Assembly (NCBI RefSeq): GCF_029211265.1
Contig: NZ_JARGEL010000008.1
Location: forward strand, 62,001 to 126,000
DNA length: 64,000 bases
Direction: 5' to 3'
Source: Extensimonas soli
Lineage (GTDB): Bacteria; Pseudomonadota; Gammaproteobacteria; Burkholderiales; Burkholderiaceae_C
The notes under the pieces are model-generated. The model searched no databases, was not told where the DNA came from, and worked only from the letters and a program-made list of their open reading frames with translations. Of the stretch, positions 5,141 to 59,252 are shown in pieces. Each line of letters opens with the position of its first letter. The stretch's first letter is position 1. A program made the translations under genes and the position numbers.

Positions 5141-5175
5141 TCGGTGCTTTGCGTGCCGATTCCGGTGCGCACTAG

Positions 5176-5333
5176 TGCAGTGTTTGATGCTTGATGCAAC
5201 AAATAAAACCGATGGATTTTTGGTCTGGGTAAGGCGCAAACCGCAGCGATACCGGGCGGTATCGCGAGGATTTGCAACGCGGCCCAGGCCGAAAAGACGC
5301 GGTTTTATGTCGCAGATAGCGTCGAACACTGCA
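5176..5333 (+). repeat. B element, first copy of a tandem pair (158-bp palindromic element)
   Basis: A 158-bp element bounded by CTAG at 5172-5175 and 5334-5337. The two arms are nearly complementary: the left end TGCAGTGTTTGATGCTTGAT pairs imperfectly with the right end AGCGTCGAACACTGCA, and the centre is GCGATACCGGGCGGTATCGC. As RNA or single-stranded DNA it would form a long hairpin. It lies 35 bp after the hrpA stop codon. On the minus strand one frame has no stop and gives a peptide containing [19 protein letters not shown]. Confidence 0.9.
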
Positions 5334-5337
5334 CTAG

Positions 5338-5495
5338 TGTAGTGTTTGATGCTTGATGCGACAAATAAAACCGATGGATTTTGGGTCTGGGCAAGGCGCA
5401 AACCGCAGCGATACCGGGCGGTATCGCGAGGATTTGCAACGCGGCCCAGGCCGAAAAGACGCGGTTTTATGTCGCAGATAGCGTCGAACACTGCA
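5338..5495 (+). repeat. B element, second copy of the tandem pair
   Basis: A second 158-bp copy in the same orientation, sharing the CTAG at 5334-5337 with the first and ending at another CTAG at 5496-5499. The two copies are almost identical, differing at a few positions (for example GATGCGAC versus GATGCAAC). Three CTAG tetramers for two elements is what repeated insertion into the flanking tetramer, or unequal amplification, would leave. No transposase gene is nearby. Confidence 0.9.
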
Positions 5496-5586
5496 CTAGC
5501 AATGGAAAAGTTACTCGCGCAGTATCCGGCGCTCGTCCCGTCCCGGCTGGGCGCTGCAGCGGGGCCATGCATACTCGATCCCCTGG

Positions 5587-5747
5587 CAGCCTGTCGGACT
5601 TTGGAATCGTCGGCTGCGAATGTGCCGCAGCGGTCCATTTTTTACCGTCTTCTTGCCCCATAGTCCCGCTATGGGGCGGCGAATCCGGCAAAAACTGGCC
5701 TCGCTGGGGCACCTTCTCGCTTTCGACGCCCAAAGTCCGACAGGCTG
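5587..5747 (+). repeat. A element, intergenic copy before corA (161-bp palindromic element)
   Basis: A 161-bp element flanked by the direct repeat CTGG at 5583-5586 and 5748-5751. Its ends, CAGCCTGTCGGACTTTGG and CCAAAGTCCGACAGGCTG, are perfect inverted repeats, and the centre GCCCCATAGTCCCGCTATGGGGC forms the tip of the hairpin. Although outside any gene, its minus strand keeps the same stop-free frame as the copies within genes ([14 protein letters not shown], then [11 protein letters not shown]). It ends 22 bp before the corA ATG and may influence that gene's leader. Confidence 0.9.
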
Positions 5748-5769
5748 CTGGGTTGCATACGAACAAGGA

Positions 5770-12989: not shown

Positions 12990-13049
12990 GCGCAGCGCAC
13001 GCCTTGGGTTGAATCGTTGCAGCAGCGCAAGCGCGCAAGCGCGCAGGCG

Positions 13050-14675
13050 ATGGAAATCGTTCTCGCACACATGCCACCCCCCGTGATTGCCTGGCTCGCG
13101 CTGCGCCTTTATGGAGTGCTGACCTGGCTTGCCCAGCCGCTGCTGCGGCGCAAGCTGCGCCTGCGCGCACGCGCCGAGCCCGGCTACGCGCAGGCCGTGG
13201 GCGAGCGTTTCGGGCGCTATGCGCCAGAGATCGTGCGTCAGCTGCCACATGCCCATCACGCTGATCACGCGCAGGCCGACGCACCCTGGATTTGGGTGCA
13301 TGCCGTGTCGCTGGGCGAAACGCGCGCTGCGGCCATCCTGATCGCGGCCCTGCGTGCGCGCCTGCCGGGCATGCGACTGCTGCTCACGCACAGCACCGCG
13401 ACGGGCCGCGCCGAAGGCACCAAGCTGCTGCAGCCCGGCGACGTGCAGGTCTGGCAGCCTTGGGACACACGCGCTGCCGTGGAGCGCTTTTTGCGCACCT
13501 TTCGCCCCGCGCTCGGCATCCTCATGGAAACCGAGGTCTGGCCGAATCTGGTCGCAGGCTGCAAGGCGCAGGGCGTCCCGCTCGTGCTCGCGAACGCGCG
13601 GCTCAACGCCAAATCTTGGCGCAGTGCGCGGCGCGTCACGGCCCTGGCCGTGCCCGCCTACCGCAGCCTCACGGCCGTGTGGGCGCAGACCGAGGACGAC
13701 GCGCAGCGCCTGCGCAGCCTGGGCGCGCCCGTGCAGGCGGTGTTCGGCAACCTCAAGTTCGACGTGCGCCCCGACGCCGCGCAGCGCGCGCTCGGCCAAT
13801 CCTGGCGCGCGCACAGTCCGCGCCCGGTTGTCATGCTTGCGAGCAGCCGCGAGGGGGAGGAGGCGATGTGGCTGCAGGCCATCGCTCAGGTTTTAGAACG
13901 AAAAACGCCTCTAGCAGCCTGTCGGACTTTAGGCGTCGATAGCGAGAATGCGCCCCAGCGTGACCAGTTTTTGCCGGATTCGCCGCCCCATAGCGGGACT
14001 ATGGGGCAAGAAGACGGTAAAAAATGGGCCGCTGGGGCGCATTCGCAGCCGACGATTCCAAAGTCCGACAGGTTGCTAGCCAAGGCGCATCAAGCGCAAG
14101 CAGCTATCACTTCAGAAGTAACTGCGATGCCCTCAGACCCCGCTGCGCAGGTGCAATGGCTGATCGTGCCGCGCCACCCGCAGCGCTTCGACGAGGTGGC
14201 TGCGCTGCTCGAGGGTGCGGGCTTGCGCGTCGCGCGGCGCAGTTCCTGGGCGGAGGCGCCCGCGCCCGCAGACGTGTGGCTCGGCGATTCGCTGGGCGAG
14301 ATGCAGGCTTACTACGCGCTGGCGGACGTGGCGCTGCTCGGCGGCAGCTTTGCACCGCTCGGCGGCCAGAATCTGATCGAGGCCGCAGCCTGCGGCTGCC
14401 CCGTGGTGCTCGGGCCCCATACCTTCAACTTTGCCGAAGCCGCGCAACGCGCCTGCGAAACCGGTGCCGCGCTGCGCGTGGCGGACCTGCGCCAGGGCGT
14501 GCGGGCGGCCTGCGTACTCGCGCTCGACGGCGTGCGGCTGGCGCAGGCGCGTGCGCAGGCGCAGGCATTCGCGCAAACCCACCGCGGCGCGGCCGAGGCC
14601 ACGGCGCAGGCTGTGACCGCTTTGTTGGCGTGCAGCACACCAGCACAACGGAGCGTGGGCAGCAAGGTGGCGTGA
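13050..14675 (+). CDS. waaA: 3-deoxy-D-manno-octulosonic acid (Kdo) transferase WaaA with an in-frame A-element insertion
   Basis: Kdo transferase, which adds Kdo to lipid IVA at the inner membrane. It has 541 residues against roughly 425 in the family. The N-terminal membrane anchor is PVIAWLALRLYGVL, and conserved blocks are AVSLGETRAA, LLLTHSTATGR, MLASSREGEE, LIVPRHPQRF and GGQNLIEAAACGCPVVLGPHTFNF split over two motifs. The active-site Glu normally follows VSLGE. Residues 289-343 come from a complete A element, flanked by about 16 residues from a C repeat. This lies between MLASSREGEE and LIVPRHPQRF in the C-terminal domain, probably on a surface loop. The frame stays open and both sides keep family motifs, so the gene is likely functional. 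ATG 13071 is an alternative start. Confidence 0.92.
   Translation: MEIVLAHMPPPVIAWLALRLYGVLTWLAQPLLRRKLRLRARAEPGYAQAVGERFGRYAPEIVRQLPHAHHADHAQADAPWIWVHAVSLGETRAAAILIAALRARLPGMRLLLTHSTATGRAEGTKLLQPGDVQVWQPWDTRAAVERFLRTFRPALGILMETEVWPNLVAGCKAQGVPLVLANARLNAKSWRSARRVTALAVPAYRSLTAVWAQTEDDAQRLRSLGAPVQAVFGNLKFDVRPDAAQRALGQSWRAHSPRPVVMLASSREGEEAMWLQAIAQVLERKTPLAACRTLGVDSENAPQRDQFLPDSPPHSGTMGQEDGKKWAAGAHSQPTIPKSDRLLAKAHQAQAAITSEVTAMPSDPAAQVQWLIVPRHPQRFDEVAALLEGAGLRVARRSSWAEAPAPADVWLGDSLGEMQAYYALADVALLGGSFAPLGGQNLIEAAACGCPVVLGPHTFNFAEAAQRACETGAALRVADLRQGVRAACVLALDGVRLAQARAQAQAFAQTHRGAAEATAQAVTALLACSTPAQRSVGSKVA
13894..14120 (-). repeat. C repeat in waaA, split by an A element
   Basis: The two halves are 13894-13914 and 14076-14120. 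Joined on the minus strand they read GATAGCTGCTTGCGCTTGAT, a spacer CGC, then CTTGGCTAGAGGCG and a T-rich end, nearly the same as the hrpA copy. The A element has inserted at the CTAG and duplicated it (13911-13914 and 14076-14079). This gives a relative age: the C repeat was there first. Confidence 0.85.
13915..14075 (+). repeat. A element inserted in frame in waaA
   Basis: A 161-bp element with a perfect CTAG duplication on both sides, so 165 bp or exactly 55 codons were added to waaA. The encoded peptide begins ACRTLGVDSENAPQ, continues with [15 protein letters not shown] and ends with [12 protein letters not shown]. The same peptide occurs in HemD and in the membrane protein at 58431-59252. 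Confidence 0.95.
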
Positions 14676-23834: not shown

Positions 23835-23907
23835 GCCTTTTTGTGCATGTTGCATCGGTGTGCGATACCCAACGCGGTCTCTACTGAGGCGCCTGTGCGC
23901 AAACTAG

Positions 23908-24065
23908 TGTAGTGTTCGACGCTATATGCGACATAAAACCGCGTCTTTTCGGCCCGGGCCGCGTTGCAAATCCTCGCGATACCACCCGGTATCGCTGCGG
24001 TTTGCGCCTTGCCCAGACCAAAAAACCATCGGTTTTATTTGTCGCATCAAGCATCAAACACTACA
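23908..24065 (-). repeat. B element upstream of ppiA
   Basis: A 158-bp copy in the opposite orientation to the tandem pair at 5176-5495, flanked by CTAG (23904-23907) and CTGG (24066-24069). The plus strand has a stop-free frame ([19 protein letters not shown]) that runs on in frame into ppiA, so a longer fusion product is possible on paper. The secreted-protein start at 24101 makes that unlikely. Confidence 0.9.
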
Positions 24066-24100
24066 CTGGCAAGCTGCGGCATCTCCTTCACGAGTTTTCC

Positions 24101-29555: not shown

Positions 29556-30635
29556 CTATCGAGGCCCGTCGGGCTTGGGAGTCGTCGGCTGTGACACGTT
29601 TTCGCCATCGCTGCCCAAAGTCCGACAGGCTCCGAGCGCGGCCGCCACGTCTTCCACCGTAGGGCGGCAGTCGCACACCAGCCCGAAGCCTGCGGCGCGC
29701 GCGGCGGCGGCGATGCGCGGGTGCGTGGCGAGTGCGCGCGCCTGCGCGAGCGGCAGGTCGGGGAGGGCCTGCCGCAGATGGCGCACGGCCAAGGAACTGC
29801 TGAGCAGCCACCAGCTGCGCGCCGCTACGGCCGCGTGGGCGAGGCGCCGCTGTTCGGGGCCCCAAAGGGGCGCGGCGCGCTCGTAGGCGACCACGGTTTC
29901 GACCATGCCACCCTCCGCTTCGACTTGCTGCGCGAGCCAGTCCCGGCCCTGGCCTTTGCGCCCCGCGGCTGCGTCGGCACTGCCTGCATCCGTATCCATA
30001 GCGCGTCCGCGCACGACGAGCACGCGCGCGCCCGGCTGCACCTGGGGCGCCACGCGCTGCCATAGCGCCTCGGAGTCGAACTGCGCGGCCTCGGCGGGTG
30101 GGGCGTCCAGCCGCGCCGCGGGCCAGCCCGCCTGCTGCAGCGCGCGCGCCGTACCCGGGCCGGGCGCCCATGCTCTTGTAGATATAGCTATCAGCGCAGG
30201 CAGATAGGGCGCTAAAGCCTCTTTTTGCATCAAAAAATGGCGCACGGCGGGCACGCTCACGAACATCACCGCCTGGTAGTGCGCGAGTTGCGCGCGCGCC
30301 TGCTGCAATGCGGCCTGGCTCGCGGCATCCGCGCAGGGGGCAATGTCGATCAGGGGCAGGGCGGCGGCGCTGATGCCCCGCGCGCCAAGCTGCTGCACCC
30401 AGCGTGCGGCCTCGAGAGCAGGGCGGGTGACGATGACTTGCACGCCTAGCAGCCTGTCGGACTTTGGAATCGTCGGCTGCGAATGCGCCGCAGCGGCCCA
30501 TTTTTTACCGTCTTCTTGCCCCATAGTCCCGCTATGGGGCGGCGAATCCGGCAAAAACTGGTCACGCTGGGGCGCATTCTCGCTTTCGACGCCCAAAGTC
30601 CGACAGGCTGCCAGGCCCTGCGCTTGTGCCGTCAT
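29556..30635 (-). CDS. hemD: Uroporphyrinogen-III synthase HemD with element-derived insertions at both ends
   Basis: HemD closes and inverts ring D of hydroxymethylbilane to give uroporphyrinogen III. The HemD body runs from [18 protein letters not shown] to [16 protein letters not shown] 30635 overlaps the hemC stop (ATGA), the usual arrangement for these two genes. From there the first eight codons run into a complete A element (residues 9-63) and then, in frame, into HemD, giving 359 residues against about 260 in the family. The last 24 residues come from a 69-bp deleted A element. A degenerate C repeat lies around residues 135-153. If translation instead begins at GTG 30443, the A element would lie in the leader and the protein would have 295 residues. 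Confidence 0.9.
29564..29632 (-). repeat. Internally deleted A element at the 3' end of hemD (69 bp)
   Basis: The left 31 bp and right 35 bp match the two arms of the full A element, with about 92 bp of the centre missing. The tetramer CGAG occurs on both sides (29560-29563 and 29633-29636). It encodes [14 protein letters not shown] and the rest of the HemD C-terminus. Confidence 0.75.
30176..30232 (+). repeat. C repeat, degenerate copy inside hemD
   Basis: The plus strand reads GATATAGCTATCAGCGCAGG, then GGGCGCTAAAGCCTCTTTTT, a diverged member of the C family. hemD reads it as [13 protein letters not shown], in the same frame as the hrpA and waaA copies. Confidence 0.55.
30450..30610 (-). 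repeat. A element between hemC and the HemD core
   Basis: A full 161-bp copy flanked by CTAG (30446-30449) and CCAG (30611-30614). With the tetramer it adds exactly 55 codons to the reading frame that starts at the hemC/hemD ATGA overlap. Removing it leaves hemD starting [17 protein letters not shown], a normal HemD N-terminus. Confidence 0.93.
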
Positions 30636-39177: not shown

Positions 39178-40947
<1,770 letters not shown>

Positions 40948-58430: not shown

Positions 58431-59252
58431 TCAGCGCGGTGGCGGATGCAGGTACAGCTTGTCTGACCAGGTGGCGAGCCATTCGGGCTTGAAGGCAACG
58501 AAAATCGCCGCGAACATGCCGGTGATGAAGCCGTCGCCCCAGGCCATGAGCCAGTGCCCGACGAGCGACAGGCCCTCATCGACACCGGGCAGCGTGTGGC
58601 CGCTCCATTGGGCGAGCATGGCCGAGACGAACACGCACAGCACCGTGCCGAGGAACGCGCGGCCGAGCACATAGACGAAGATCCATGCGCCCAGGAGCCT
58701 GTCGGACTTTGGAATCGTCGGCTGTGAATGCGCCGCAGCGACCCATTTTTTACCGTCTTCTTGCCCCATAGCACCACTATGGGGCGGCGAATCCGGCAAA
58801 AACTGGTCACGCTGGGGCGCATTCTCGCTTTCGACGCCCAAAGTCCGACAGGCTCCTAGGTAGCGCCGTATCAGCGCACCGAGCAGCAGCGCAAAGGTGG
58901 CCGGCACCACGCCGAGCCAGGCGATGGTGCCCAGCGCCTGCGCCCAGCCCATGGCGGGCGAAAACCAGCACGCGAGCACGCCCACCGCCACGAGCGTCAG
59001 CACGGCGAGCGGCCAGCCCAGCATCAGCACCACCAGGCAGGCGCCCGACCACTGCAGTTGCAGCGGCATGGCGTGCAAGGTGGGCAGCGCCCAGACCCAG
59101 GGCAGCAGCACGAGCGTCGCGAGCAGCGGCGAGATGAGCGGCGAGAGCGTGCGCTCACGCCCGGCGCCAGCGGGCCACACGAGCATGCGCCACGGCGCGA
59201 GCCACAGCGCTACGAGCACGGCAAGGGTCACGAGGGTGGCTTCGAGCAGCAT
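58431..59252 (-). CDS. CbiM-like integral membrane protein with an in-frame A element
   Basis: A 273-residue polytopic membrane protein I place near predicted CbiM-like or energy-coupling permeases (COG3235 type). Transmembrane segments include LLEATLVTLAVLVALWLA, LLATLVLLPWVWAL, LVVLMLGWPLAVLTLVAVG and GTIAWLGVVPATFALLLGAL before the insert, and WIFVYVLGRAFLGTVLCVFV and GDGFITGMFAAIFVAF after it. Residues 133-187 are derived from an A element and lie between two transmembrane segments, likely in a loop. The frame is kept. No ATPase partner is adjacent. ATG 59252 was chosen; a TTG at 59288 would add 12 residues. Confidence 0.75.
   Translation of the reverse strand: MLLEATLVTLAVLVALWLAPWRMLVWPAGAGRERTLSPLISPLLATLVLLPWVWALPTLHAMPLQLQWSGACLVVLMLGWPLAVLTLVAVGVLACWFSPAMGWAQALGTIAWLGVVPATFALLLGALIRRYLGACRTLGVESENAPQRDQFLPDSPPHSGAMGQEDGKKWVAAAHSQPTIPKSDRLLGAWIFVYVLGRAFLGTVLCVFVSAMLAQWSGHTLPGVDEGLSLVGHWLMAWGDGFITGMFAAIFVAFKPEWLATWSDKLYLHPPPR
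58695..58855 (-). repeat. A element inserted in frame in the CbiM-like gene
   Basis: A full 161-bp copy flanked by CCAG (58691-58694) and CTAG (58856-58859). Its outermost bases are G and C, whereas the other full copies have C and G, but the rest matches closely. It adds 55 codons in the same orientation and frame as in waaA and hemD. Confidence 0.94.

Follow-up and report, generated by a model that had tools for sequence, protein, structure and literature searches.

A CTAG-flanked palindromic element found in frame in genes of Extensimonas soli, probably a MITE of a resident IS1182-family insertion sequence

The gene for a predicted membrane protein in a 64-kb stretch of the Extensimonas soli genome (the window) contains a palindromic sequence, here denoted A, that does not interrupt its reading frame, and the question is whether this arrangement is an accident, a sign that the inserted peptide is useful to the host, or a property of the element itself. 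The first-pass annotation had claimed that residues 133-187 of this protein derive from an A element at 58691-58859, that the insert lies between hydrophobic segments, and that it has the same orientation and frame as the copies in WaaA and HemD, both of which are indeed in frame. The 169 bp in question consist of CCAG, 161 bp and CTAG, that is, one repeat copy that is near-identical to its own reverse complement (predicted hairpin folding energy -117.5 kcal/mol, z = -15), and belong to a minus-strand ORF whose orthologs in two genomes of the same genus, E. vulgaris (G001) and E. perlucida (G002), show ~92-94% DNA identity and lack exactly 165 bp. By our computation the element-derived stretch is residues 132-186; it is the same insert, the one-residue difference arising because the CTAG duplication blurs the edge, and it is flanked by the hydrophobic segments 106-129 and 186-217 as claimed. 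The description of the host as a membrane protein with an insert thus stands, whereas the name CbiM is weakly supported: the Pfam CbiM profile scores 17.1 bits with this protein and 20.4 bits with the element-free ortholog, both below the cut-off of 23.1. The features of the window are collected in Table 1.

Table 1. A and B elements and their host genes in the window
Feature	Positions	Strand	Evidence or remark
A element (CCAG-161 bp-CTAG) in CbiM-like gene	58691..58859	+	read by minus-strand gene as 55 codons; sites empty in G001 and G002
CbiM-like membrane protein gene with insertion	58431..59252	-	ORF; Pfam CbiM below cut-off
A element in frame in waaA	13911..14079	-	net 165 bp; CTAG target intact in E. 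vulgaris
waaA (KDO transferase) ORF, stop to stop	12990..14672	+	ORF, family matches
In-frame A element at hemD codon 8	30446..30614	+	inspection, comparison with relatives
hemD (uroporphyrinogen-III synthase)	29556..30635	-	HEM4, 85.4 bits
A element upstream of plus-strand gene, excluded from intragenic count	5583..5751	+	
Remnant of one A end	29588..29636	+	
Two tandem B copies (second CTAG-flanked palindrome; control)	5169..5496	+	
Third B copy in window	23903..24083	-	

The A core pattern has 87 matches in the genome of E. soli (G000; 3.44 Mb in 50 contigs) compared to 0 for the control, and a 16-base pattern of the A end, with up to two mismatches allowed, has 106 + 107 matches compared to 7 + 2 for the reversed control. 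At least 93 unique copies, at least 87 of them near full length, were recovered; these counts are lower bounds, the DNA search having scored the best 40 of 142 candidates, and the six copies left out of the near-full set had fewer than 140 matched query bases. Exactly 169 bp with both tetranucleotides is the form of 81 of the 87 near-full copies, and the other six were omitted from the substitution count. Shortened forms, with A ends and less sequence inside, are present at G000:C3:102314, C3:143371, C8:112711 and C15:33996. The element proper is a 161-bp near-palindrome located at CTAG and, together with one duplicated CTAG, adds 165 bp, or 55 codons, so that an insertion leaves the reading frame unshifted. 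The frame that is used by the host genes is open in 81 of the 87 copies and a second frame in 77, compared to 0 to 9 copies for the other four. The A element had no match in the plasmid collection, and none in Rfam at gathering thresholds within the window, where the same scan yielded two tRNAs and one 5_ureB_sRNA match (40473-40786, 77.1 bits).

In-frame copies were identified with a codon score trained on the long ORFs of the window, an element being considered intragenic when the score exceeded 0.1 on both sides. Twenty-one copies were found in ORFs that are coding on both flanks, with identical orientation and frame in all of them. A second test, in which the element and one CTAG were removed by script and the emptied sites checked for coding sequence, returned the same 21 copies and two weak ones; the coding scores of the two tests use different windows, and waaA was the weakest case in the emptied-site test (0.07). 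Two copies that had not passed the automatic test were included after inspection, bringing the set to 23: one in hemD, where the element follows the seventh codon and the ATG overlaps the hemC stop, and one of the two weak ones, in a small gene at C34:50499. The other weak one, C34:91373, is ambiguous, as the start of the downstream gene probably lies beyond the element, and was left out. Hence 23 of the 87 near-full copies are placed inside genes and all 23 are open, in a single orientation and frame. No broken gene was seen among the 87 copies in this test, which is blind to old decayed broken genes and to insertions that have fewer than 25 codons on one side unless spotted by eye. The genome-wide count that the first-pass annotation had proposed therefore came out in its favor, the reverse outcome being that most intragenic copies disrupt frames. 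Eight further copies appear intergenic by eye, most of them with coding-like flanks on one strand and in different phases. Among the A copies of E. soli there is no convincing insertion in the second open frame; a candidate on the other strand, C3:120596, overlaps a confirmed in-frame gene.

If orientation were random, half of the insertions would be closed, and the probability of finding 23 out of 23 open is ~1e-7 (one-sided; 2.4e-7 two-sided) under the assumption of independence. Free CTAG sites in coding ORFs are found 18 times in the phase CTA/G and 5 times in the phase NCT/AGN (these loci partly overlap and may hold duplicates), and the occurrence of all 23 insertions in the commoner frame has, again assuming independence, p = 0.004. 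The peptide encoded in the used frame is more hydrophilic than that of the other frame (mean hydropathy -0.78 vs -0.07), which may account for the remaining frame bias.

A second CTAG-flanked palindrome, B, with 103 candidates genome-wide that often share a CTAG with an A copy, served as the control; no donor of B was found. Of the 66 A copies that do not belong to the automatic in-frame set, 23 have B as a neighbor, mostly with a shared CTAG, compared to none of the 21 that do (p = 0.001). Among 42 B copies, none is in frame and one is located in a gene, which it breaks: a gene for a PLP-dependent enzyme at L308 is interrupted by a B copy (around 730-895) that carries an in-frame stop, and the piece after it matches PF00291, a family of such enzymes. 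This case indicates that the method is able to detect a broken gene. At the threshold of >0.1 the comparison is 20 of 87 for A vs 1 of 42 for B (p = 0.002), or 23 of 87 with the full set (p = 0.0005); B is, however, an imperfect control since the frame that is widely open in B matches the rarer CTAG phase alone, and fewer in-frame B insertions are to be expected for this reason.

The host genes are diverse. Family scans, which covered 20 ORFs, identified DapF, a DUF2944/2946 protein, GlmS, TauE, a PfkB-type kinase, a cystathionine-lyase-type enzyme, an EnvZ-like kinase, PMT_2, Mpl, a LysE-type protein, an acyl-CoA dehydrogenase-type enzyme, AAA_33, an SSF symporter, Sua5/TsaC, PdxA (two copies, the second of which sits in the same gene), a curcumin-reductase-type enzyme, MltB, a class-III aminotransferase (HemL-like) and WaaA, with HemD identified separately. 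Several NCBIfam scores of the host genes fall short of the curated cut-off, which is to be anticipated for a match split by an insert; the Pfam scores quoted, except for the CbiM-like protein, exceed their own.

Junction peptides were searched in the two same-genus genomes and in G005, followed by DNA alignment; G005 yielded no A match among the best 8 of 15 candidates. Exactly 165 bp are extra in E. soli relative to a same-genus relative at 14 of the 23 sites: dapF, glmS, tauE, pfkB, metC, PMT_2, acd, AAA_33, SSF, pdxA-1, pdxA-2, mltB, waaA and the CbiM-like gene; at the waaA site the element is absent from both relatives. Other net lengths were found for sua5 (186), curA (162) and hemD (147 and 153), the length varying among relatives, and no ortholog of the EnvZ-like gene was found in either same-genus genome. 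In E. vulgaris, the empty sites in waaA and dapF each have a single intact CTAG; the other empty sites deviate from this sequence. Eight sites are filled in a relative, namely, mpl, pdxA-1 and DUF2946 in E. perlucida, lysE, sua5, the small gene and pdxA-2 (102 bp) in E. vulgaris, and the HemL-like gene in both; DUF2946 has an additional 90-bp version in E. vulgaris. The net length of these two short forms is still a multiple of three.

Comparison of the shared filled sites (10 comparisons at 8 sites, in which two pairs align part of the element and two share the same E. soli copy twice) gives 51 nonsynonymous and 13 synonymous changes in the element codons (dN/dS 1.21), compared to 66 and 171 in the neighboring host codons (dN/dS 0.13; Fisher p = 7e-14 for the contrast). 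On this sequence comparison, the host gene is conserved and the inserted peptide is tolerated without being conserved. Within E. soli, rare changes amount to 33 nonsynonymous and 11 synonymous in 22 in-frame copies vs 59 nonsynonymous, 36 synonymous and 3 stop in 59 others (p = 0.18). The first-pass annotation had invoked selection for the open frame; this holds with respect to the readability of the host gene and fails with respect to the peptide sequence itself. At synonymous positions the element has diverged less (13/326) than the flanks (171/1050). In four of seven comparisons the copy in the relative is the closest or almost the closest one to the copy at the same position, and in the other three it ranks 18, 32 and 57 of 81, which argues that the history of the shared filled sites is not simple descent. 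Some of these sites have probably undergone gene conversion or received more than one insertion at the same CTAG, and the dN/dS of the element accordingly does not date purely from the species split.

The resident insertion sequence (IS) that shares its ends with A is represented by two copies that are 98.4% identical over 1538 bp. Both have CTAG-CAGCCTGTCGGACTT at each end, and the transposase that they encode, 452 residues long, belongs to the IS1182 family (383.8 bits; cut-off, 270). The same CTAG-CAGCCTGTCGGACTT is found at the ends of A, so that the terminal repeats are common to A and an autonomous element of the same genome, and CTAG flanks both IS copies as it does A, the same target duplication; one IS copy abuts an A copy, with the CTAG in common. 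The A element itself has no transposase gene, only 161 bp and the 55-residue peptide, and its similarity to the IS is limited to ~15 bp plus CTAG at each end. Because its ends and CTAG duplication match those of a complete IS1182-family element, A is read, on sequence grounds, as a MITE of this element that is very probably moved by the resident transposase. A transposase with a 97% identical protein sequence is encoded in E. vulgaris, and 63% identical ones in E. perlucida, G050 and G067; the E. perlucida relative has similar ends on both sides and those of G050 and G067 on one side only by exact search. The genomes G006 and G015 contain A-like matches yet no close transposase match. Another E. 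soli IS with CTAG ends, at L225 (G000:C48), encodes an IS5-type transposase and has different terminal repeats.

Among 100 relatives searched, 14 (12 of 98 genera) contain a match to A. In the loci listed, 7 of 19 copies are in frame and none broken in E. perlucida, three of these being genes already counted (mpl, pdxA and HemL-like), and 3 of 31 are in frame and none broken in E. vulgaris. Other in-frame hosts in Extensimonas include UvrA-like, P-type ATPase, aminopeptidase, glucokinase, AMP-binding and Na/H-exchanger genes. An insertion between the YjeF_N and Carb_kinase domains in E. vulgaris (L101 2403) uses the second open frame and is the only such case seen. In two sets of other proteobacterial MAGs, 2 of 9 and 3 of 13 copies among the loci listed are in frame, with Pfam support in three of the five cases (abhydrolase, HemD and CheA-like), none for L070 and a doubtful one for L081. 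Among the Hydrogenophilales loci listed, none of 7 copies is in frame and one is apparently broken; the remaining 22 copies include no in-frame insertion among the loci listed, and the frame is usually closed in the most remote of them.

Several explanations of the in-frame copies can be weighed against these observations. It is improbable that the peptide or the hairpin performs a host function, for example as a shared regulatory or interaction tag on core enzymes, and is kept by positive selection: the used frame is open outside genes as well (in the 81 of 87 copies noted above) and in the consensus of five other MAG groups, as such a function might have it, but the dN/dS of ~1.2 at the shared sites, the lack of depletion of nonsynonymous changes in the in-frame copies, the emptiness of most sites in relatives and the unrelatedness of the host genes argue against it. 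Still less probable is removal or skipping of the insert through RNA processing, protein splicing or a ribosomal bypass from one CTA codon to the other; it would be compatible with the strong hairpin and with the identical CTA codons that the CTAG duplication leaves at both edges of each in-frame copy, yet it would require neither an open frame nor one orientation, which all 23 insertions display. Hardly any weight can be given to the possibility that the ORFs around the insertions arose by chance in GC-rich DNA, the insertions then being intergenic. Long ORFs are common, the window by itself having 190 of 120 aa or more, but the codon scores on both flanks, the family matches on both sides of many sites, the contiguous coding orthologs at the empty sites and the low dN/dS of the neighboring codons (0.13) all speak for genuine genes.

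We therefore favor, with a probability of roughly 0.85, the reading that A is a non-autonomous MITE with the ends of the resident IS1182-family element, the open in-gene insertions of which survive as tolerated peptides. Under this reading, the A ends (GSAGCCTGTCGGACTT) are those of the resident 1.53-kb element, the transposase of which would insert A at CTAG and duplicate these 4 bp. Given that the element plus one CTAG is 165 bp long, the frame remains unshifted, and one frame per orientation is usually free of stops; the commoner target phase (CTA/G) combined with one orientation yields a hydrophilic 55-residue insert. Insertions that introduce a stop would be lost by selection on the host, and the open ones would be kept as tolerated peptide inserts. 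We infer that the inserted peptide is translated and the host proteins are functional. A more speculative proposal, to which we give somewhat less than even odds, is that the A lineage has been shaped to be compatible with genes, through a net length that is a multiple of three and a stop-free hydrophilic frame matching the commonest target phase, with living genes acting as a reservoir that keeps copies intact and the strategy being carried between unrelated bacteria that share the element.

We know of no identified mover of the Rickettsia palindromic elements, the known system that A most resembles by description. These are palindromes of ~150 bp, with many copies per genome, that encode peptides and are located in frame in unrelated genes; in-frame insertion has been described (Ogata et al., 2000, 2002; as reviewed in PMC10969869), and this review considers a similar mechanism in other prokaryotes conceivable. 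In contrast, the host of A is a betaproteobacterium of the Comamonadaceae, the CTAG target and its duplication are shown, and a likely donor IS is identified; because the host is Extensimonas and not Rickettsia, A works like such an element but is not filed as one. We take Extensimonas to be a free-living genus of this family. PMC11936349 lists Extensimonas soli among Comamonadaceae, Micrococcaceae and Roseiarcaceae strains from soil. Compared to IS1182-family insertion sequences (e.g., ISAzo1, an annotated plasmid match), A shares the terminal sequence and CTAG flanks with the resident IS but lacks the transposase gene and is a near-palindrome over its whole length. The QMITE1 and QMITE2 elements of Coxiella are likewise MITEs that overlap annotated genes, some of them in frame in hypothetical ORFs, with effects on genes of known function mostly at the gene ends (PMC5896051); the A insertions differ in being fully internal, in well-known genes, in one frame and with a fixed 165-bp step. 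The literature excerpts searched contained nothing on an A element in Extensimonas or Comamonadaceae.

Most descriptions of coding palindromic elements come from Rickettsia. For A, the target is known, a donor transposase is probable, and comparison is possible with empty sites in sister species and with a second palindrome of the same genome. Together, these make the question whether such inserts are junk or useful, as well as their spread through core genes, directly testable, and the A insertions amount to a natural set of 55-residue inserts in many core enzymes.
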